Part shown: positions 7,095-15,026 of the stretch, piece after piece
Layout: every line of letters begins with the position of its first letter
Numbering within the stretch: position 1 is the first letter of the stretch
Assembly (NCBI RefSeq): GCF_900119145.1
Contig: NZ_FPIY01000001.1
Span: 310,001 to 374,000, forward strand
Direction of reading: 5' to 3'
From: Cellulophaga fucicola
GTDB taxonomy: Bacteria; Bacteroidota; Bacteroidia; Flavobacteriales; Flavobacteriaceae
DNA: 64,000 nt
The notes under the pieces: generated by a model
Database searches by the model: none
Seen by the model: only the letters and a program-made list of their open reading frames with translations
Told to the model about the DNA's origin: nothing
Program-made: the position numbers and the translations under genes

Positions 7095-7739
7095 TTAAAT
7101 ATGATCTACCATAAATAAGTCCCCCTTATTTGTGGTATTATTACTAACATCATATATCACGGCATCTTCTTCGGACTCATAATAAAGTCCCCAGAATCCG
7201 AAGTAAGATTTTTCAGTTATATTGGTTAAGTCTATTTTATCTTCTGGTAAAAGAGGTAGATGTATCTCTGTTGGCAGCTCTAGTTTATCCGTCACTAAGT
7301 TGTCAATGTTGGTTACAAGTGTGTCCAGTATAGCGTCTAAACTATTTACAATGCTATTTTTACAGACCTTACTAATTATTATAGAGGTATCTGTTAAGTA
7401 AATTGCAAGTTCAGCTATATCTACAAATTGCTCTGTATTATTTCTTAAACTTTCTAAACTGCTATAAAATTCCTCTAGTCTTGAAGAATTTATATCTAAT
7501 TTATCTTTTAACCAGTTAGAGTTATTGTAATAACAAACACCTTCTGATAGCCAAAAGTTAGATTGAAATTCTACGCCTATCTCTAGACTGTCTTGAGTGT
7601 TTTTTAGAACTCTAATAAGTACTCCAGAAAAATAGGCTTTTTCTAGTTTATTTCTAAAGATTTCTAATTGCTTTAAAACACTTTTTGGGACAGTATTAGA
7701 ATAGCGAATTCCATTGTATTTTGATGGGTTAGTCATCAT
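7095..7739 (-). CDS. Protein of unknown function at the end of a signalling island
   Basis: I do not recognise this 214-residue protein. It has no signal peptide, lipobox or membrane segment, so it is probably cytoplasmic. The sequence is acidic and predicted helical in the middle (about 60-140), with a C-terminal part rich in D, E and aromatic residues. It lies downstream of a histidine kinase and response regulator on the same strand but is separated from them by 151 bases that hold its own promoter-like box. That promoter carries a dyad element also found upstream of the LytTR regulator gene at 11848, which suggests shared control and a role in the same circuit. Function is unknown. Confidence 0.7.
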   Translation of the reverse strand: MMTNPSKYNGIRYSNTVPKSVLKQLEIFRNKLEKAYFSGVLIRVLKNTQDSLEIGVEFQSNFWLSEGVCYYNNSNWLKDKLDINSSRLEEFYSSLESLRNNTEQFVDIAELAIYLTDTSIIISKVCKNSIVNSLDAILDTLVTNIDNLVTDKLELPTEIHLPLLPEDKIDLTNITEKSYFGFWGLYYESEEDAVIYDVSNNTTNKGDLFMVDHI

Positions 7740-7890: not shown

Positions 7891-8556
7891 TTATATAAAA
7901 CCTCTTCTTTTAGCTTCATTTATTAGAGCTAAATCGTTCTCGTTTTCTATGTCAAAAATAAATTTTAACTTTCGTTTTCTGGTTTCAATTCCGGTTACAG
8001 AAAGATTTACATAATCTACAAGATCCTTGGTTTTTATTCCTAACGATAAACGGTAAAGAATTTCTTTATCATCTTCGTTAATCATAATATTGTTTGTCAT
8101 TGTTTTTCTAAAAACATCAATAGCAGATTTAGAATAATATGTACTATCATTTAAGACGTTGTCTAGCGCTTTTTCTAGAACTTCATCATTAACTTCTGTT
8201 TTAACAATGTAACCATCTGGATTTACAGAAGAAAAAATATTGCTAATTCTTAGGCTATCGCTAAAAGAAGATTGGAATATTATTTTTGTTTTAGGTGATA
8301 TTTCTCTTAGTAACATACCTAAGTTCTCACCGGTTTTATTTCCGTCTAAGTTTTCTTTGTCTGGCTTTTCTATCTGAATATCTAAAAAAGCAACATCAAA
8401 AATATTACTCTCTATAAGTTCTTTTGCTTTTTGATAGCTATTTGCTGTTGTTAGATTGATATTGTATTTAGCTGGATTTATATCAGCAAAAGTGTATTGA
8501 TACCCTTTTAAAATAAGTTGATGGTCATCTACTGCTAATATTTTTAAGGTTCGCAT
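7891..8556 (-). CDS. Response regulator, receiver plus NarL/LuxR-like helix-turn-helix
   Basis: A 221-residue DNA-binding response regulator. The receiver domain (about 1-135) has the acidic pair D10/D11, phosphoacceptor D59 in FLDIQI, and a lysine in the YIVKTE segment at the usual K position. The C-terminal part (about 155-221) has a LuxR-like layout, with LSLGIKTKDLVDYVNLSVTGIETRKRKL as linked helices. It follows the histidine kinase gene by 23 bases, so the two form a DesK/ComP-type pair in one operon. A reasonable target is the dyad element at 7802 and 11901, but that is inference. Confidence 0.9.
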   Translation of the reverse strand: MRTLKILAVDDHQLILKGYQYTFADINPAKYNINLTTANSYQKAKELIESNIFDVAFLDIQIEKPDKENLDGNKTGENLGMLLREISPKTKIIFQSSFSDSLRISNIFSSVNPDGYIVKTEVNDEVLEKALDNVLNDSTYYSKSAIDVFRKTMTNNIMINEDDKEILYRLSLGIKTKDLVDYVNLSVTGIETRKRKLKFIFDIENENDLALINEAKRRGFI

Positions 8557-8579: not shown

Positions 8580-10559
8580 TTATGTAAGTAATATATTGTC
8601 GTTGTCTAAAGGAATGGTGATAGTAATTCTAGTTCCTTTGTTTATTTCGCTGCTAATTTGCACTTTAGCATTAATTTTATTGGCTCTAGAGTATATATTT
8701 TTGTGTCCTATTCCTTTTTTATTTTTTTGGAGGTTAAAACCTACGCCGTTATCAGATAAAATTACAGATAAATTTGAGTTCTTCATACTTAAATCTAATA
8801 AAATATTTTCAGCCTTAGAATATTTAACACAGTTTTGAACTCCTTCTTGTATCATTCTGTATAAATTAATCTTTATTTCGGCGTTTAAGTGATCCCAGTC
8901 TATATGCTTATCAAAATTAAAGTTGGTTTTAATGCTAGAAGCTTTGCTTGTGTTGTGTAATAACTCTATTAAAGAGTTTGTGAAGTTTTGCATTTTTTTA
9001 GAAGAAGAAGCACTAAGTGTGTGAGATATAGTTCTTATTTCTTCTGCTGTTTCTTGCAATTGTTTAATTAAATCTAAACGCTCAGCCATTGCCTCTTCAT
9101 CTGCTCTTTTGTTGGTAGCTTTTAAAATTAGACCAATACCAGTTAAGCTACCAAGTACACCGTCATGAAGTTCTTGTGAAATTCTTAATTGTTCTTCTTG
9201 CTTGGCTTGGGCTAACTTTCCTTTTTGTGCAAGCATTAAATTAAAGGTTTCTAAATTGGTCTCTTGTTGTTCTTGTTCAAATTTTAATTTCTGATTTTTT
9301 AAATACTGACTACCAATTACAAAGATTGCGAAGGCTAATAATAGAGCGCCTATAACAAAAGAAATAAGCATTTGTTTTTGTTGTTCTAATACTTCTTTTT
9401 CTTCTATGACTTCATCGGTTTCATATTTTATTCTTGTAAACTTGTCTTGTAACAGGCGTTCTTCTGCAATTAAGCTATCATTAAGAACAATGTATTTGTG
9501 TGCGTAGGTACTTGCGTTAATAGGGTCTATTGTTGTTAAAATGTCATAAGCTTGTAATAGTCTTTTGTTATTTTTGTTTTGTAGTGAGTATTCTTCAGAT
9601 TTTTTAGCATTTTCTAATGCTTTAGAAGTGTCTTTTTTTAGAATATAAAATTCTGCTAAATTAAAATGGCTTATGGCTAAACCAGAAATATCATTTAAGC
9701 TATCTCTTAACTTTAAAGAGTAGAGTAGTTGGTTTTCTACATTAGTAGTGTCACCAGATTTTAACTTTGTATAAGCAAGGTTATCTAGTACCTTAGCGTA
9801 AAATGTTGTTTTGTTTTCAAATAAACTATCTACTTCTAATATTTTTTTATAATTTTTAATAGCACTTTTATAGTCTCCTTTATCTCTGTAGACATTCGCA
9901 ATGTTATTAACTACAGAGGTATTTATTGTGTTGTTTGGTTTGTATTTTTTGTAGTATTCAAGTGCCTTGTCATAATATCCTAGTGCCCTGTCATGCTCTT
10001 TTAGTGCATTTGTTACGGATCCTAAGTTGTTATAGCTGTGGTATAAGTTTTTGTCTTCTCCTTCTAAGGTTTTATATATTTCAATAGCTTTAATGGTTGA
10101 TATTTCACTTCCTCTGTAGTCTTTTACATTAGATTGAAGCAAAGCTAAAGACCTTAAAATGTCTCCTTCTTTTTTTTCGTTTTTTTGCAACTTTAAAATT
10201 TTCTGAGCTTTTAAATAGTAAAAAAAACTACTGTCTATTTTTGATTTAGTTTGAAAAAAATAGGCTAAATCCCAATAAGCGTATGCCAATAGAGTTGAGT
10301 CGTTCTGACTGTGAGATAAATCAATTACTTTTTTATTTGTTTCTCTAAATTTTACAGAATCTTTTTGATTTAGATATGTATAAGCAAGAGATTGTAGTTG
10401 TCTTCTGTGTATGGAGTCCTTTTTGTTTTGTAATAGGTTTATGGTGTCGTTTGTTTTTTGCTGATATTTTGTGTTTTCTGCAGAACTACTTTTCTCTTTT
10501 TCATTGGTACACGAAGAGATTATAACAATTAAAATTAGAAGAGTGAAAAATTTTTGCAC
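8580..10559 (-). CDS. TPR lipoprotein sensor histidine kinase (HisKA_3 type)
   Basis: A 659-residue kinase. Residues 1-17 form a lipoprotein signal with lipobox ISSC (Cys17), followed by several TPR-like repeats (about 55-360), one transmembrane helix (about 397-416), a coiled linker, the HisKA_3 dimerisation domain with H465 in SQELHDGVLG, and a HATPase domain with an N-box (EGVQNCVKYS) and G-box (DNGVGF). The TPR part should lie in the periplasm, held by both the lipid anchor and the helix. The paired regulator is immediately downstream. TPR modules bind peptides or proteins, so a protein ligand is plausible. A terminator separates it from the upstream repeat-lipoprotein gene. Confidence 0.92.
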   Translation of the reverse strand: MQKFFTLLILIVIISSCTNEKEKSSSAENTKYQQKTNDTINLLQNKKDSIHRRQLQSLAYTYLNQKDSVKFRETNKKVIDLSHSQNDSTLLAYAYWDLAYFFQTKSKIDSSFFYYLKAQKILKLQKNEKKEGDILRSLALLQSNVKDYRGSEISTIKAIEIYKTLEGEDKNLYHSYNNLGSVTNALKEHDRALGYYDKALEYYKKYKPNNTINTSVVNNIANVYRDKGDYKSAIKNYKKILEVDSLFENKTTFYAKVLDNLAYTKLKSGDTTNVENQLLYSLKLRDSLNDISGLAISHFNLAEFYILKKDTSKALENAKKSEEYSLQNKNNKRLLQAYDILTTIDPINASTYAHKYIVLNDSLIAEERLLQDKFTRIKYETDEVIEEKEVLEQQKQMLISFVIGALLLAFAIFVIGSQYLKNQKLKFEQEQQETNLETFNLMLAQKGKLAQAKQEEQLRISQELHDGVLGSLTGIGLILKATNKRADEEAMAERLDLIKQLQETAEEIRTISHTLSASSSKKMQNFTNSLIELLHNTSKASSIKTNFNFDKHIDWDHLNAEIKINLYRMIQEGVQNCVKYSKAENILLDLSMKNSNLSVILSDNGVGFNLQKNKKGIGHKNIYSRANKINAKVQISSEINKGTRITITIPLDNDNILLT

Positions 10560-10666: not shown

Positions 10667-10987
10667 TTAGTTTACTGCGCCACCACTACCTTTAGGAGCT
10701 TCAACCTCATCATCATCAGTAGCAATTGCTCCACCACTACCTTTAGGAGCTTCAACTTCATCGTCATCCGTAGCAACTGCTCCACCACTACCTTTAGGAG
10801 CTTCAACTTCATCGTCATCCGTAGCAATTGCTCCACCACTACCTTTAGGAGCTTCAACTTCATCGTCATCAGTAGCGTTTACATTTTCGTATAAGGCATC
10901 ATTAGAGTTGGTGTCTACATCACAAGAGAATAATAATAGACTAAAAATAAACATCGCAAGCAGGTTAATTAAATTTTTCATAATCAT
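10667..10987 (-). CDS. Small lipoprotein with four tandem 17-residue acidic repeats
   Basis: A 106-residue protein of no family I know. The N-terminus is a lipoprotein signal ending LLLFSC, then a 15-residue linker, then four copies of ATDDDEVEAPKGSGGA followed by I or V (alternating I, V, I, V), then a final Asn. ATG codons at 10987 and 10981 are both possible starts. The mature part is exported, lipid anchored and low complexity: an acidic DDDEVE half, a PKG turn and a Gly/Ser/Ala half. It lies between a LytTR regulator gene and a TPR sensor kinase gene on the same strand, with its own terminator. Possible roles are signal-peptide precursor, kinase ligand, surface spacer or metal binder; none is shown. 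Confidence 0.8.
   Translation of the reverse strand: MIMKNLINLLAMFIFSLLLFSCDVDTNSNDALYENVNATDDDEVEAPKGSGGAIATDDDEVEAPKGSGGAVATDDDEVEAPKGSGGAIATDDDEVEAPKGSGGAVN
10673..10876 (-). repeat. Four 51-bp tandem repeats inside the small lipoprotein gene
   Basis: Units are at 10826-10876, 10775-10825, 10724-10774 and 10673-10723 in coding order. They differ by a few bases, mostly silent (for example the Asp codons and one Glu codon of the last unit), plus the I/V change. The protein repeat is kept more strictly than the DNA, which points to selection on the peptide. Confidence 0.95.
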
Positions 10988-11079
10988 TTTTTTGGTTAAA
11001 TTATTTTATTGCTTTGCTAAAGTATAATTATTCACTTATAAAAAAAGTAAGAATTTATTTCTTTTAGTATGTGGCCAGC

Positions 11080-11110
11080 TTCTGATAGTGATTATATTGT
11101 TTCTGATAGT
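11080..11110. promoter_or_regulatory. Direct repeat with 21-bp period, candidate LytTR binding site
   Basis: TTCTGATAGT occurs at 11080-11089 and again at 11101-11110, identical over 10 bp and exactly 21 bp apart. LytTR-domain regulators typically bind two direct repeats spaced about two helical turns. The site lies just beyond the stop of a LytTR gene and about 93-123 bp upstream of the repeat-lipoprotein start. Confidence 0.5.
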
Positions 11111-11116
11111 ATTTAG

Positions 11117-11848
11117 TTAATTTTGTGTGGAAATTGCATTTTTCGCCATCTTGTTTTTTAATTTGTCTATGTTTTCTTTGTAGGACTTGGAGAAAGGGAG
11201 TTGAAGATCTGATCTTTTTATATTACAAATACTTTTTCCATAGTTAATTCTAGATACATACTCTGTATTTAAAATGTAGCTTTGATGTATTCTTATAAAG
11301 TTTTCTGGCAATTTATTTTCAAATGTTTTTAATGTTTTAAAAGCACTAATTTTTTTTCCATTATTTAAAAATAAATCTGTGGCATTATTATCTGCTTTTA
11401 GGTATAGAATTTCTGAAGTGTCTATGTATTGATAATCTTTATAAGATTGTAAACAAAGAGTAGGTGTTGTTTCTTTTTTAGGAGTTTGTTTTCTTATTTT
11501 AAAAACAGCTTTTCTAATATCAAACTCATTATAAGGTAGTAGCCAGTAGTCAAAAAAACCATTTTTAATTGCATCATAGGCATAATCTTTAGAGGTGCTA
11601 ACGCCTATAATTAAAGGAATTTGATCAATATATTGGTGTAAGTCAGAAACCATTTGAAAGTACTCTCTTGTGTTTTTCTGTAAATCAACAAAAATGATAT
11701 CTGGACTGTATTTTAAAATACTGTTTAAAGCAACGTTAGAATTTTCTGAAATATCTACACAAGAAAAGTCGTTGTATTCTTCTAAAAAATGCTGTAATTG
11801 CAGATTAGAAGAAGCAGAGTTTCCTATAATAATATATGAATAATTCAT
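11117..11848 (-). CDS. LytTR-family DNA-binding regulator with degenerate receiver domain
   Basis: The 243-residue form starting MNYSYIIIGN is preferred; a start ten codons earlier is possible. The N-terminal domain (about 1-120) has a receiver-like layout with D55 in FVDLQK and a Ser near 84, but the usual acidic pair is replaced by GNSAS and the conserved Lys-Pro is Leu-Pro (L104-P105). The C-terminal LytTR domain (about 140-240) has ILYLKADNNATDLFL, FIRIHQSYILN and a final LPFSKSYKENI. Loss of the acidic pocket and Lys suggests control that does not depend on phosphorylation. It is the first gene of the minus-strand island, and its promoter region carries a dyad shared with the gene at 7739. 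Confidence 0.88.
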   Translation of the reverse strand: MNYSYIIIGNSASSNLQLQHFLEEYNDFSCVDISENSNVALNSILKYSPDIIFVDLQKNTREYFQMVSDLHQYIDQIPLIIGVSTSKDYAYDAIKNGFFDYWLLPYNEFDIRKAVFKIRKQTPKKETTPTLCLQSYKDYQYIDTSEILYLKADNNATDLFLNNGKKISAFKTLKTFENKLPENFIRIHQSYILNTEYVSRINYGKSICNIKRSDLQLPFSKSYKENIDKLKNKMAKNAISTQN

Positions 11849-11900
11849 TTCAAACGTTCTCAGTATAAAACTAAGCATAGATTATTGAAACATATTATAG

Positions 11901-11996: not shown

Positions 11997-13511
11997 TTAG
12001 TTGTTGGGTGTAAACTCATAAGCACCAATATCTGGAGAGATTGTTCTATTATTCCCTTTAATGTCTAATGGTGTTTTAAGAGCATTATTTTTATCTGCGT
12101 TATCTATTGCAACAGAGTTATTCTGGATTTTAAAGCTATTTTTCAGAGGATTTGCAAAAGCTGTTTCTGCTGAGATATAGGGAAGTGTATAATGTAATTC
12201 ATCTTTAAAATTATAAAGGTTGCTTGTTACTTTGGTGTCAAATTTTATAATACAATTTGTAAACTTAAAGCTTAGTGGGCTAGACGGAGATTCTATTAAA
12301 AGTAGTTCATTGGTTGCGTTGCCATCTATAATACTGTTTGTAAAGTTTACCTCTAATGTATTTGCTGTGTTATTAGTAGAGGTGTTATTAATTTGTAAAG
12401 CTGTACCTGTACGGTATGTTCTAGACCAGTAATTAGCAATTGTAGTGTGATTAAAATTATAGGTACCAGCTTGTTTTAATTGTAATGATGCGTAGCCAGC
12501 ATTTGCAATTACACAATTATAGGCTTCAATATTAGAGTTTAGTGCATAAATATTAGTTTGTAGGCTATTGTATATTTGTGTGTTGCTAAGGGTTAGGGTA
12601 GTGGTGTTGCTTTCTCTTTTTCCATTGATATAAATACCAATGCTTGCGTTTTTTATAGTAGCGTAGTTTATGGTGTTATTTGTACTTCCTTTTTCTATCC
12701 AAAGACCGTCCCATTGTCCGGCTACATTTGTATAAGAAGGCTCTAATCTATCTGCTTCAAAAAGAACTTCATTTTCTAATAAATTCTCGTCTGCACTAAG
12801 TTTTCCGTTAACTTGTATGCTTGCATTGTCTTTTATTAGTATGCCAGAATTTTTATGAAAATAGATTCTTGCGCCAGCATCTATTATTAAAGTCTCATTT
12901 TTGGGAACGGTAGCATAGCCGTAAATTACATATGGTTTACTTGCTGTAAAATGTAAATTATCTTCTTTTAGTGTAAACCCATCTTTTGTTAGTTCTTCGT
13001 TGCTTTCTTCTAATGTTAAAACAATAGTCTCTGTGGTGCCATTTTCAAACTTGGTAGGAAACAAAAAAATAGCATCTTTTACTAAGCTTACAAGTTCAAC
13101 TTTTTGTGTGTTACTGCCACTATCAAATAAAATAGCATCGGTATATAAAAAATCTGAAACTTTAGTATTTGGCACATTTATCTCTACAAAGATATAAAGA
13201 CTGTCTTTTGCATAAAGAGGAGTATTGGTAAAACTTTCGCCAGCTTGTCCGTCTACATTTAGCTTATAATAACTATTAGCACCTTTTGCTAGTTTTATTG
13301 TGGGTATTTGTAAATCTGTATTACTTTTATTGTAAACTTTAAAACCGTAAGTACTGCTATTTATAGTAGAGAAAACAGTATCTAAGTAAACTGTGTCTTT
13401 AGAGAAAGATAAATTACCAGTGCTATCTTCAAAATTAAAATCTTTACGACAAGAACTCCCTAAAATAACAAAGAATATAATTGCTATATATAATAAGGAG
13501 TGCATTTTCAT
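11997..13511 (-). CDS. Secreted lipoprotein with right-handed beta-helix, choice-of-anchor Q-like end
   Basis: A 504-residue protein with a signal ending ILGSSC. The first third is beta-sandwich-like (STYGFKVYNKSNTDLQIP resembles an abnormal-spindle/Ig-type domain). The middle (about 200-440) has short repeating beta segments with N, T and I ladders (for example TINYATIKNASIGIYING), as in right-handed parallel beta-helices. The C-terminus has SPDIGAYEF, the motif that ends choice-of-anchor Q proteins. It is probably on the cell surface or in the outer membrane. Such helices often bind or cleave polysaccharides, but no catalytic set is recognised. It is 13 bp downstream of the thioesterase gene on the same strand, so probably cotranscribed. 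Confidence 0.8.
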   Translation of the reverse strand: MKMHSLLYIAIIFFVILGSSCRKDFNFEDSTGNLSFSKDTVYLDTVFSTINSSTYGFKVYNKSNTDLQIPTIKLAKGANSYYKLNVDGQAGESFTNTPLYAKDSLYIFVEINVPNTKVSDFLYTDAILFDSGSNTQKVELVSLVKDAIFLFPTKFENGTTETIVLTLEESNEELTKDGFTLKEDNLHFTASKPYVIYGYATVPKNETLIIDAGARIYFHKNSGILIKDNASIQVNGKLSADENLLENEVLFEADRLEPSYTNVAGQWDGLWIEKGSTNNTINYATIKNASIGIYINGKRESNTTTLTLSNTQIYNSLQTNIYALNSNIEAYNCVIANAGYASLQLKQAGTYNFNHTTIANYWSRTYRTGTALQINNTSTNNTANTLEVNFTNSIIDGNATNELLLIESPSSPLSFKFTNCIIKFDTKVTSNLYNFKDELHYTLPYISAETAFANPLKNSFKIQNNSVAIDNADKNNALKTPLDIKGNNRTISPDIGAYEFTPNN

Positions 13512-13524
13512 TTTTAAGTATAAA

Positions 13525-13917
13525 CTAGTCTATAAAAATATTCTTGATTTCTTCTGAAACTCTTATTGGTCTTAAACTTTTAGAGTTTAGTAGGCACCAT
13601 TCTGTTTTAGCTTTTAAAATAATCTTATTGGTTAACGAGTTGCGCATTTCTACGATACGAACTGAAATTGCTCCTTCAGACTTTTTAATATATGTTTTAA
13701 CTTTAATAATGTCGTCTAGTATAGCTGCAGCTTTATATTCTAAAAAATGCGTACTAACAACCCACATATGGTTTTCTTGTACTTCTTTGCTAGCAGATGC
13801 TTGCCAATGTTCTTTGGATATATCTTGTACCCATTGTAGGTATCTAACATTGTTTACATGATTTAGATCGTCTAAATCATCTGCTGTTACTGTAATAGTT
13901 TTGTGGTAGACTTTCAA
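13525..13917 (-). CDS. Acyl-CoA thioesterase, 4HBT/YbgC-FadM hotdog family
   Basis: A 130-residue single hotdog domain. The motif DDLNHVNNVRYLQW holds the Asp (17) that acts as the catalytic base in the 4HBT group. The family hydrolyses acyl-CoA or related thioesters in the cytoplasm; the exact substrate cannot be told. It lies 4 bp downstream of the glutamine cyclotransferase gene and 13 bp upstream of the beta-helix lipoprotein gene, all minus strand, so the three are probably one operon despite unrelated functions. Confidence 0.88.
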   Translation of the reverse strand: MKVYHKTITVTADDLDDLNHVNNVRYLQWVQDISKEHWQASASKEVQENHMWVVSTHFLEYKAAAILDDIIKVKTYIKKSEGAISVRIVEMRNSLTNKIILKAKTEWCLLNSKSLRPIRVSEEIKNIFID

Positions 13918-13921
13918 TGTC

Positions 13922-14971
13922 TTACTTTTTTATAATATTAACCTCAAACATCTTATCCCAGTTTTTACCCGTTACAAAAAATGTTTTGGTAGTAGGGTTG
14001 TAAGCAATGCCATTTAATACATCTACATTGTCTGTTTTTGTAACCTTGTCCTTAAGTCCGTTAAAGTTAATAATACCTTCTACTACGCCGCTTTCTGGGT
14101 TTATAATTACAGCAACATCCTGGCCAGACTGCCAAGTATTGGCGTAGATTTTACCATCTACGTATTCTAGTTCATTAATTTTAACTAGCTTTTTACTATT
14201 TGTATATATTTCTATAGCGCTTTCTTCTATTAATGTTTCTGGATTTAATGTCCATATTTTTTCAGACCCATCACTCTTGTATAATTTTTCTCCATCATTA
14301 CAAAATCCCCAGCCTTCTTTACTTTTTCCGTAGGTAAACTGGTCTATTTCTTTAAATGTATTTGCGTCATAAACAAAGCCAATATTGCTTTGCCAAGTAA
14401 GTTGGTATATCTTATTATTTAAAATAGTAATACCTTCTCCAAATTGGGTGTTTTTTAATTTATGTTCTTTATAAACTGTGCCAGTTTTGTAGTCTAGCTT
14501 AACTAAAACAGATTTTCCTCTTTTTCCAGTTCCTTCGTACAAAGTATCTTTATGGAACTCTAAGCCTTGGGTAAAGTAATTTGGATTGTGTGGGTATTCG
14601 TTAATTACTTCGTAACTATATATGCTTGGAGATTTAGATGCAAAAACAATAATTTTTTTAGAAACCTCAGCTACAGTATCATCATATTTAACTTCTGCAG
14701 TAATAGTTTTGCTACCAACTTTAGGTACGTCTAAAACTAATTTGTTGTCTTTTATATCAATTTTCTCACCATCTATAGAATAGGTAATACTATTAATAGT
14801 CTTGTTTTTTTTGTTTTTTAGGTTGATATCTACCGTTTCATTTTGGTGAAATTTGGCATTTTTACCTGAAATCTGTATTTCAAACAAGCTTGAAGCAGGA
14901 GTATTTGCTCCTCCGCAAGAAGCTAGTAAAATAGTTAGTGCGCTGTAAGTTAAAAACTTAAGTGTTTTCAT
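13922..14971 (-). CDS. Glutaminyl-peptide cyclotransferase, beta-propeller type, lipoprotein
   Basis: A 349-residue protein from the ATG at 14971, giving a signal that ends ILLASC; a start eight codons earlier is unlikely. After a short Ig-like region (about 30-115) comes the five-bladed propeller of the plant/bacterial glutamine cyclotransferase family, with YPHNPNYFTQGLEF, GKRGKSVLVKLD, YQLTWQ and NELEYVDGKIYANTWQS, which are hallmark segments. The family turns N-terminal Gln into pyroglutamate on exported proteins. It is probably periplasmic and lipid anchored. It is the first gene of the likely three-gene operon down to 11997, and lies divergent from the SRP RNA gene. Confidence 0.92.
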   Translation of the reverse strand: MKTLKFLTYSALTILLASCGGANTPASSLFEIQISGKNAKFHQNETVDINLKNKKNKTINSITYSIDGEKIDIKDNKLVLDVPKVGSKTITAEVKYDDTVAEVSKKIIVFASKSPSIYSYEVINEYPHNPNYFTQGLEFHKDTLYEGTGKRGKSVLVKLDYKTGTVYKEHKLKNTQFGEGITILNNKIYQLTWQSNIGFVYDANTFKEIDQFTYGKSKEGWGFCNDGEKLYKSDGSEKIWTLNPETLIEESAIEIYTNSKKLVKINELEYVDGKIYANTWQSGQDVAVIINPESGVVEGIINFNGLKDKVTKTDNVDVLNGIAYNPTTKTFFVTGKNWDKMFEVNIIKK

Positions 14972-15026
14972 AATAGTAGTGTTATTCCTAAGCAAGGTAT
15001 TTAATAAAAATTAGATAGAAAAATGA

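Follow-up and report, generated by a model that had tools for sequence, protein, structure and literature searches.

A tandem-repeat lipoprotein beside a TPR sensor kinase as a candidate peptide-signal precursor in Flavobacteriaceae

Why should a small lipoprotein consist, behind its signal peptide and a short linker, of four near-identical 17-residue units, and which partner, if any, do these units serve? The question is raised by a gene in a 64,000-nucleotide stretch of the Cellulophaga fucicola genome (contig NZ_FPIY01000001.1, positions 310,001 to 374,000), which as a whole is termed the window here. The gene takes part in a gene order conserved in Flavobacteriaceae, which runs from a LytTR regulator through a tiny secreted precursor and a TPR histidine kinase to a response regulator. 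An earlier note on this DNA had described the product as a lipobox Cys, a short linker and four 17-residue units. The window translation confirms this layout for 10667-10987 on the minus strand, which reads MIMKNLINLLAMFIFSLLLFSC-DVDTNSNDALYENVN-(ATDDDEVEAPKGSGGA(I/V))x4-N. The features of the locus are as follows.

7095-7739 (-): conserved downstream gene, with no Pfam or NCBIfam match above cut-off; hit in 65 of the 68 loci with full downstream sequence
7891-8556 (-): second response regulator
8580-10559 (-): sensor histidine kinase, with N-terminal TPR superhelix, hydrophobic segment, HisKA_3 and HATPase
10667-10987 (-): putative precursor gene, repeat lipoprotein of 106 aa; start ATG at 10987, or at 10981, giving MKNL...
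10673-10723 (-): unit 4, ATDDDEVEAPKGSGGAV
10724-10774 (-): unit 3, ATDDDEVEAPKGSGGAI
10775-10825 (-): unit 2, ATDDDEVEAPKGSGGAV
10826-10876 (-): unit 1, ATDDDEVEAPKGSGGAI
10877-10921 (-): linker DVDTNSNDALYENVN, with an ALYE-like motif common to many relatives
10922-10987 (-): signal peptide with lipobox LFSC (Cys22), judged by eye
11059-11110 (-): three direct repeats with a 21-bp period (ACTATCAGAA, ACTATCAGAA, ACTAAAAGAA), candidate LytTR operator before the precursor gene
11117-11878 (-): LytTR-domain response regulator (first regulator)

The 51-bp array is the sole strong tandem repeat of the window: TRF places it at 10676-10876 with 3.9 copies, 95% matches and a score of 360, and the only other array scores 59. 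Per pair, the four DNA units show 2.67 synonymous against 0.67 non-synonymous differences (pS 0.219, pN 0.017). The excess of silent over amino-acid change that had been reported for them is thus reproduced, and the proposal that the unit peptide is under selection is borne out by pN/pS. Purifying selection also keeps the units of other species. Of 35 arrays found, 32 were scored (L041, L063 and L081 were left out), and pN is below pS in all 32, with a median pN of 0.046 versus a pS of 0.383; some arrays reach a pS of 0.56-0.81 with a pN of 0 (L140, L129). Judged by this divergence, the copies of an array are old yet encode the same peptide, which argues against recent slippage; such constancy is what a single partner that has to be matched by each copy would lead one to expect. 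The window copies, given their high pS, are not fresh slippage products either. The suggestion that repeat number could change by slippage therefore holds in one part only: copy number does differ between species (3, 4, 5, 6), but not through freshly slipped copies.

Attempts to assign the window protein to a known family gave short chance repeats (Chlam_PMP, POMP_repeat) and a weak model at the level of the signal peptide, and membership was rejected. Ten relatives of the precursor likewise revealed no consistent family; PG1828_fam_lipo matches the signal-peptide region in three of the ten, below its cut-off, and the remaining matches are chance, arising from repetitive sequence. Binding of Ca2+ or another metal through DxDxD or CxxC was also discarded, as the units of other clades lack these residues.

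Kinase orthologues are present in 18/18 genomes of the genus, and the regulator is 71-96% identical to those of the four nearest named relatives (Cellulophaga). The precursor of the window is no chance open reading frame, because a precursor adjoins the LytTR regulator in all 18 genus genomes, one of them with a masked tail. At the kinase loci of the genus, 16 of the 18 hold a tiny secreted protein in this slot; the other two (L016, L018) have the precursor on another contig (L005, L008). Repeat-array precursors occur in seven of the 18 genomes, with 3, 4, 5, 5 and 6 units where they are uncut by a contig end, and their units include TDDDEVEFPKGSGGEVG, TDDDEVGEPQPSNGEVA and TDNDQIKPVGF. Ten of the remaining eleven genomes encode a precursor of 49-56 residues that carries its tail once, for example CDDCGHVTTKGN or CTDCHTPPPPRGN, and the eleventh is masked. 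These single-copy tails mark the repeat protein as an amplified version of a short C-terminal peptide. Several draft contigs end in or beside a repeat array (L005, L011, L012 and L016 of G005; L008 and L018 of G014; L075; L094), and automatic annotation of such precursors may therefore be cut or missing.

Wider samples were searched with the regulator. Of 237 relatives that the regulator alignment matched in public genomes, the best 80 were kept, and a family sample held regulator relatives in 51 of 199 genomes at E<=1e-50. The 132 LytTR records, less 24 duplicates judged by their last 200 residues (L094 among them, compared apart), make 108 distinct loci, of which 18 stem from genus searches that used kinase or precursor as query and 90 were fetched by the regulator alone. 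L142, with no regulator by pattern and its region read as L143, and the second-copy loci L031 and L032 stand outside this set. The slot is occupied by a precursor in 107 of the 108 loci, and in 89 of the 90 fetched by the regulator alone; the sole exception is the second tandem regulator of L133 (G049), a locus with two tandem LytTR regulators and one precursor array. As a control, the ORF finder was applied to both strands of 76 slots, with 0 hits on the reverse strand against 76/76 on the forward strand, the latter true by construction. Ten shuffles each gave 2/76, probably the N-run loci L081 and L087, which the shuffler returned unchanged.

Arrays were detected by algorithm in 35 of the 107 loci, with ~2 to 10 copies, several of them weak two-copy cases of 66-70% identity; elsewhere the C-terminal peptide is usually single. 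The units are unlike in different clades. Zobellia barbeyronii (L107) has ten copies of STDGDDVQIDRRGS, Z. russellii (L052) seven and Z. uliginosa (L086) a single copy. Arenibacter has a 28-residue unit in 4-7 copies, one Maribacter group two to eight copies of a CDDC-type unit, and a Robiginitalea five copies of TDGDDTPTDDRQS. The earlier note had expected homologues with a kept unit sequence: homologues are indeed many and the unit is kept inside each array, but it differs between species. On a tree of the 107 regulators the array state needs 13 changes (37 array, 68 single, 2 uncounted: L075, L021), of which the starred branches force only 2, so that the tree lends weak support to separate origins of the arrays. 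Among 53 single-copy precursors, 42 have their final Lys or Arg no more than three residues from the C-terminus; 78 of 79 tails are net acidic from residue 25 on, and some carry CxxC. Lipidation, which the earlier description as a lipoprotein had implied, does not appear essential. The lipobox Cys is present in the window precursor and in 77 of the 107 (67 by pattern and ten YSC lipoboxes by eye), and absent in 30 (40 by pattern, less those ten that the pattern missed).

In Flavobacterium, where 40 of 101 genomes have a regulator relative, all 30 of the 40 loci that were read hold a slot precursor, in every case without a lipobox. Repeats are seen in 19 of the 30, split repeats included, for example IIGAGATGGNKKVD four times, and 23 of the 29 complete precursors end in Asp. 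Sampling about one genome per genus around a Flavobacterium genome, the regulator search finds 2/149; order- and phylum-wide samples match in 23/246 and 18/296 genomes at E<=1e-40, all within the same family. There are also 24 weaker regulator matches, of which 20 were fetched, and no obvious array was seen in these 20. By filter, a short secreted protein fills the slot in 15; L159 has a longer slot protein, L149 and L155 have one by eye, L151 is frame-broken, and L153 has none and no kinase.

As the earlier note had stated for adjacent genes, no processing protease was recognised among the seven neighbouring proteins scanned, and no exporter either. No modification enzyme was recognised among these seven, and the reading as a RiPP precursor was dropped. 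Genes for a thioesterase and a glutamine cyclotransferase (PF05096), at 13525-14995 in the window, lie upstream on the same strand in 72/72 loci with full upstream sequence. The cyclotransferase gene is located 2.0 kb past the LytTR gene; its product does not count among the recognised RiPP enzymes, and peptides with an N-terminal Gln might be capped by it. Immediately upstream of the regulator, at 11997-13511, is a choice-of-anchor Q protein (NF041518), which is hit in 67 of 80 loci. Downstream, the gene at 7095-7739 is a possible further part of the system.

The same genome encodes a second tiny lipoprotein (G000:C16, L163:6878-9746), with tail ATEGDDGEDIPLPEPPPIPNTVN and no repeat, which precedes an apparent kinase gene and a receiver protein; its divergent neighbour differs. 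This set is possibly a paralogous system, and a similar one is found in L164 (G010). Beside the other two HisKA_3 kinases found in the genome no tiny secreted neighbour was seen within 3.2-kb loci. The second-copy TPR kinases of two genus members, L031 (G016) and L032 (G003), are preceded by a lipoprotein of 79-80 residues without repeats.

In LytTR operators, direct repeats recur about every two helical turns, and the 21-bp direct repeats at 11059-11110 are a candidate for such an operator. The perfect half-site pair occurs once in the genome. Besides this pair and the overlapping third half-site, the genome has a single site with 2 mismatches (C12:191917) and four with 3; no regulon is claimed, since five control matches were obtained at up to 3 mismatches. 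Between regulator stop and precursor start, a spacing of 21 yields at least 9/10 matches in 26 of the 107 loci, compared with 0-3 loci for any other spacing between 11 and 40, a mean of 0.8 in shuffled sequences and 0/63 in the gap after the precursor. Among representatives less than 80% identical in the regulator, 12 of 49 reach this level of at least 9/10. The consensus of the half-site reads TACTCACAAAA, and its start has its median and both quartiles 5 bases after the regulator stop. In Flavobacterium a spacing of 21 is best on average, but only 2/30 reach at least 9/10. Repeats at so fixed a place would suit control of the precursor by the LytTR protein.

The LytTR protein itself, at 11117-11878, is a pseudo-receiver regulator: its phospho-acceptor position holds Asp in 10 of the 107 loci, Asn in 77, His in 14, Phe in 3 and Arg in 3, and is thus non-Asp in 97. 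This makes a simple autoinduction loop from the kinase to the LytTR protein doubtful. The second regulator keeps its receiver Asp in 77/77 loci where it was found (82 were looked at), and for this reason the kinase most likely acts through the second regulator.

What could bind the units is suggested by the kinase. Its N-terminus is lipobox-like, and the TPR part (~aa 30-390), probably periplasmic by a topology judged by eye, is joined to HisKA_3 and HATPase by a hydrophobic segment. The model of the sensor, built from an alignment of 75 sequences, is a TPR superhelix with a mean pLDDT of 92.3, and Pfam assigns the TPR fold as well. The best Foldseek hits are peptide-binding TPR proteins (LGN with NuMA or Inscuteable, kinesin light chain) or designed ones, and Rap proteins with Phr-type pheromones follow slightly lower, at ranks 36, 38, 43, 45, 46 and 48. 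As TPR superhelices resemble each other, these hits show a suitable fold, not a ligand. The NCBIfam FimS model matches aa 122-428 of the kinase at 2e-15, far below its cut-off, and for the catalytic part other kinase models match better than FimS.

The evidence that ties tail to sensor is their joint divergence. When the 82 loci that contain a complete kinase are compared pair by pair, the regulator averages 65% identity, the TPR domain 42% and the kinase domain 52%. In the pair L044/L056 the proteins are 99% identical in the regulator and 93% in the kinase, and 58% in the TPR domain, the change occurring at ~residue 350-375, before the hydrophobic segment. DNA-level identity profiles were drawn for 13 locus pairs. 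In three of them the divergence begins inside the precursor gene after the leader and continues through the non-coding gap and the TPR domain, as the following percentages show.

L044/L056: regulator 95, promoter 94, leader 92, tail 56, gap 64, TPR 62 and 63, kinase 85, next gene 85
L084/L090: regulator 94, promoter 98, leader 95, tail 77, gap 58, TPR 77 and 71, kinase 95, next gene 98
L079/L081: regulator 93, promoter 91, leader 85, tail 66, gap 56, TPR 72 and 70, kinase 92, next gene 93

In L108/L110 and L089/L102 the tail and the TPR domain drop and the gap does not; in the other profiled pairs the drop is slight or the profile even. The dS of the TPR domain compares with that of the two flanks as 1.38 versus 0.33 and 0.19 in L084/L090 and as 1.96 versus 0.48 and 0.34 in L079/L081, and is saturated versus 0.28 and 0.75 in L044/L056. 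Values so far above both flanks point to the exchange of whole alleles. L026/L027 and L081/L087, which share the same core, have even dS; in the like-core pairs L013/L014 (the window and its nearest relative) and L060/L071 the TPR dS is ~1.5-2 times that of the flanks. Two Maribacter isolates (L091/L094) have near-identical regulator, promoter and leader, followed by unlike repeat units; the contig of L094 ends before the kinase.

Given kinase and regulator distance, the partial correlation between tail and TPR divergence is 0.65 in 51 close pairs, a value reached by 4 of 2000 within-clade permutations. In wider sets it is 0.71 (95 pairs, 0 of 2000), 0.57 (147, 0), 0.40 (599, 1) and 0.32 (3081, 0). 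For comparison, tail and kinase given the regulator correlate at 0.39, 0.31, 0.51, 0.30 and 0.18 in the sets of 51, 95, 147, 599 and 3081 pairs. The masked loci L021 and L087 were left out of these correlations, in which pairs share loci and hence are not independent. Among the 51 pairs with a regulator identity of at least 90%, which share loci, 12 have unlike tails (similarity <0.6) with a median TPR identity of 0.62 and none above 0.77, and 32 have like tails with a median of 0.74; kinase identity is equal in the two groups (0.89 and 0.88). There are exceptions: L096/L108 have nearly the same core and TPR domains 60% identical, and three Arenibacter pairs with like cores have TPR domains 69% identical. 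The tail similarity of Arenibacter is overstated, as the similarity score saturates for 28-residue units. An allelic block of peptide and sensor domain is clear in several of these comparisons, all made between species. With the exceptions named, the co-divergence of tail and TPR domain has the appearance of a signature of co-diversifying ligand and receptor, and it supports the earlier proposal of the kinase TPR domain as partner.

We therefore put forward, at a probability of roughly 0.65, that the repeat protein may be a precursor that gives rise to a peptide signal, with the neighbouring TPR kinase as its sensor, in line with the pheromone analogy of the earlier note, which gains support. 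The precursor would be exported by the Sec route, lipidated in this species, and cut outside the cytoplasm into copies of one peptide of ~12-17 residues with Lys or Arg near its end, the tandem copies giving more peptide per precursor. After release past the outer membrane, the peptide would be bound by the TPR superhelix of the adjoining sensor kinase, which would pass the signal by phosphotransfer to the second response regulator and on to whatever that protein controls. The LytTR regulator, on the 21-bp direct repeats, would set the expression of the precursor. Because tail and TPR domain change together between close relatives, cells of one type would respond to their own peptide, as in a pherotype-like system. 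We also lean towards the wider claim of a pherotype peptide-pheromone system in Gram-negative Bacteroidota, with a secreted and often multi-copy precursor and an outward-facing TPR kinase, spread across Flavobacteriaceae including Flavobacterium, whose ligand and receptor would be exchanged together.

Extracellular action is the boldest step of this scheme, and its main rival is a private ligand. The action of the peptide may be confined to the periplasm of the cell that makes it, the tail then being a ligand or brake of its own kinase, a periplasmic accessory lipoprotein that reports the state of the envelope and co-evolves with the TPR domain in the absence of any signal between cells. The lipobox in 77 of the 107 precursors, a sensor domain that is probably periplasmic and the outcome of the scan of seven neighbours for an exporter or protease would all fit such a ligand. 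We nevertheless hold it to be unlikely, as 30 of the 107 precursors and those of Flavobacterium lack the lipobox Cys, and as it does not clearly explain why the unit changes from species to species, why close relatives have exchanged divergent stretches of tail and TPR domain, or why selection maintains many like copies. It is more doubtful still that diversifying selection is really directed at the TPR domain, with another ligand, and that the tail of a structural or metal-binding repeat protein hitchhikes in the recombination tract. Tail and TPR domain are adjacent, many tails are acidic (78/79) and some have CxxC, and some like-core pairs still have raised TPR divergence, so the tail may partly hitchhike with TPR exchange. 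Yet the unit is nearly constant within arrays at high pS, the tail is replaced and the leader intact in L091/L094, acidic and CxxC residues are not shared by all tails (compare IIGAGATGGNKKVD of Flavobacterium), and 0/12 unlike-tail pairs keep a TPR identity above 0.8.

Scarcely credible, finally, is the idea of a surface lipoprotein of low complexity, prone to slippage and lacking a specific partner, whose neighbours are coincidental. Small acidic lipoproteins are common in these bacteria, and copy number differs between species; the fixed slot (107/108 loci), pN below pS in 32/32 arrays scored and a divergence correlated with that of the kinase sensor are at odds with it. Synteny and pN/pS thus speak strongly against a partnerless lipoprotein.

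Should the preferred reading of a peptide signal and its TPR receptor be true, it would supply a testable circuit, a peptide signal with a defined receptor, for a large group of marine and algal bacteria. It would also imply that recognition of peptides by TPR domains can operate on the outer side of a Gram-negative inner membrane, and would provide a natural series of matched and mismatched ligand-receptor pairs. Peptide-pheromone systems are hardly known in Flavobacteriaceae. A comparative study detected homoserine-lactone gene clusters in a single flavobacterial strain (PMC7440613), and the words Bacteroid- and Flavobact- are absent from the main text of a 2026 quorum sensing review (PMC13220807). 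A search of PMC papers, with preprints and most subscription journals outside its scope, found no earlier description of this system, and a search on FimS found none either. FimS-type TPR kinases of Bacteroidota, such as FimS of Porphyromonas gingivalis, share the periplasmic TPR sensor kinase, and the signal of that kinase is reported as unknown (PMC11053733). The present reading, if true, would offer a ligand class for Bacteroidota TPR sensor kinases whose signal is unknown.

The closest parallel in the receptor is the RRNPPA family of Firmicutes (Rap-Phr, NprR, PlcR, AimR), whose TPR receptors bind exported peptides and whose propeptide may hold several copies of the mature peptide (PMC9765709). 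Shared with it are the TPR superhelix as receptor, presumed to bind a peptide here, and a short precursor exported by SPI or SPII next to the receptor gene, with a C-terminal active peptide that is sometimes multi-copy; in the present case the export signal is judged by eye. In contrast, the TPR domain here is an extracytoplasmic sensor of a histidine kinase, rather than a cytosolic regulator with HTH or Rap output fed by re-imported peptide; the host is Gram-negative, and the regulators are LytTR and receiver proteins.

The Gram-positive agr, com and fsr systems combine a peptide precursor, a histidine kinase and a LytTR-family regulator in one locus and form pherotypes. The present locus holds the same three components, with a variable peptide and sensor domain between a conserved leader and kinase. 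It differs in that the leader looks Sec-type, with no double-glycine leader seen, and in that the seven neighbours scanned include no AgrB-like protease and no ABC exporter such as ComAB. The sensor is a TPR superhelix, whereas theirs is a polytopic membrane domain, and the LytTR protein mostly lacks the phospho-Asp. As each comparison fails on a defining feature, the cytosolic receptor in one case and the dedicated protease or exporter in the other, the locus is assigned to neither RRNPPA nor agr/com. Fungal mating-factor precursors, too, are secreted and hold tandem copies of one peptide, but depend on eukaryotic processing enzymes and a GPCR receptor. By analogy with these systems, the best reading of the locus would be peptide-pheromone-type signalling built of other parts in a Gram-negative family.
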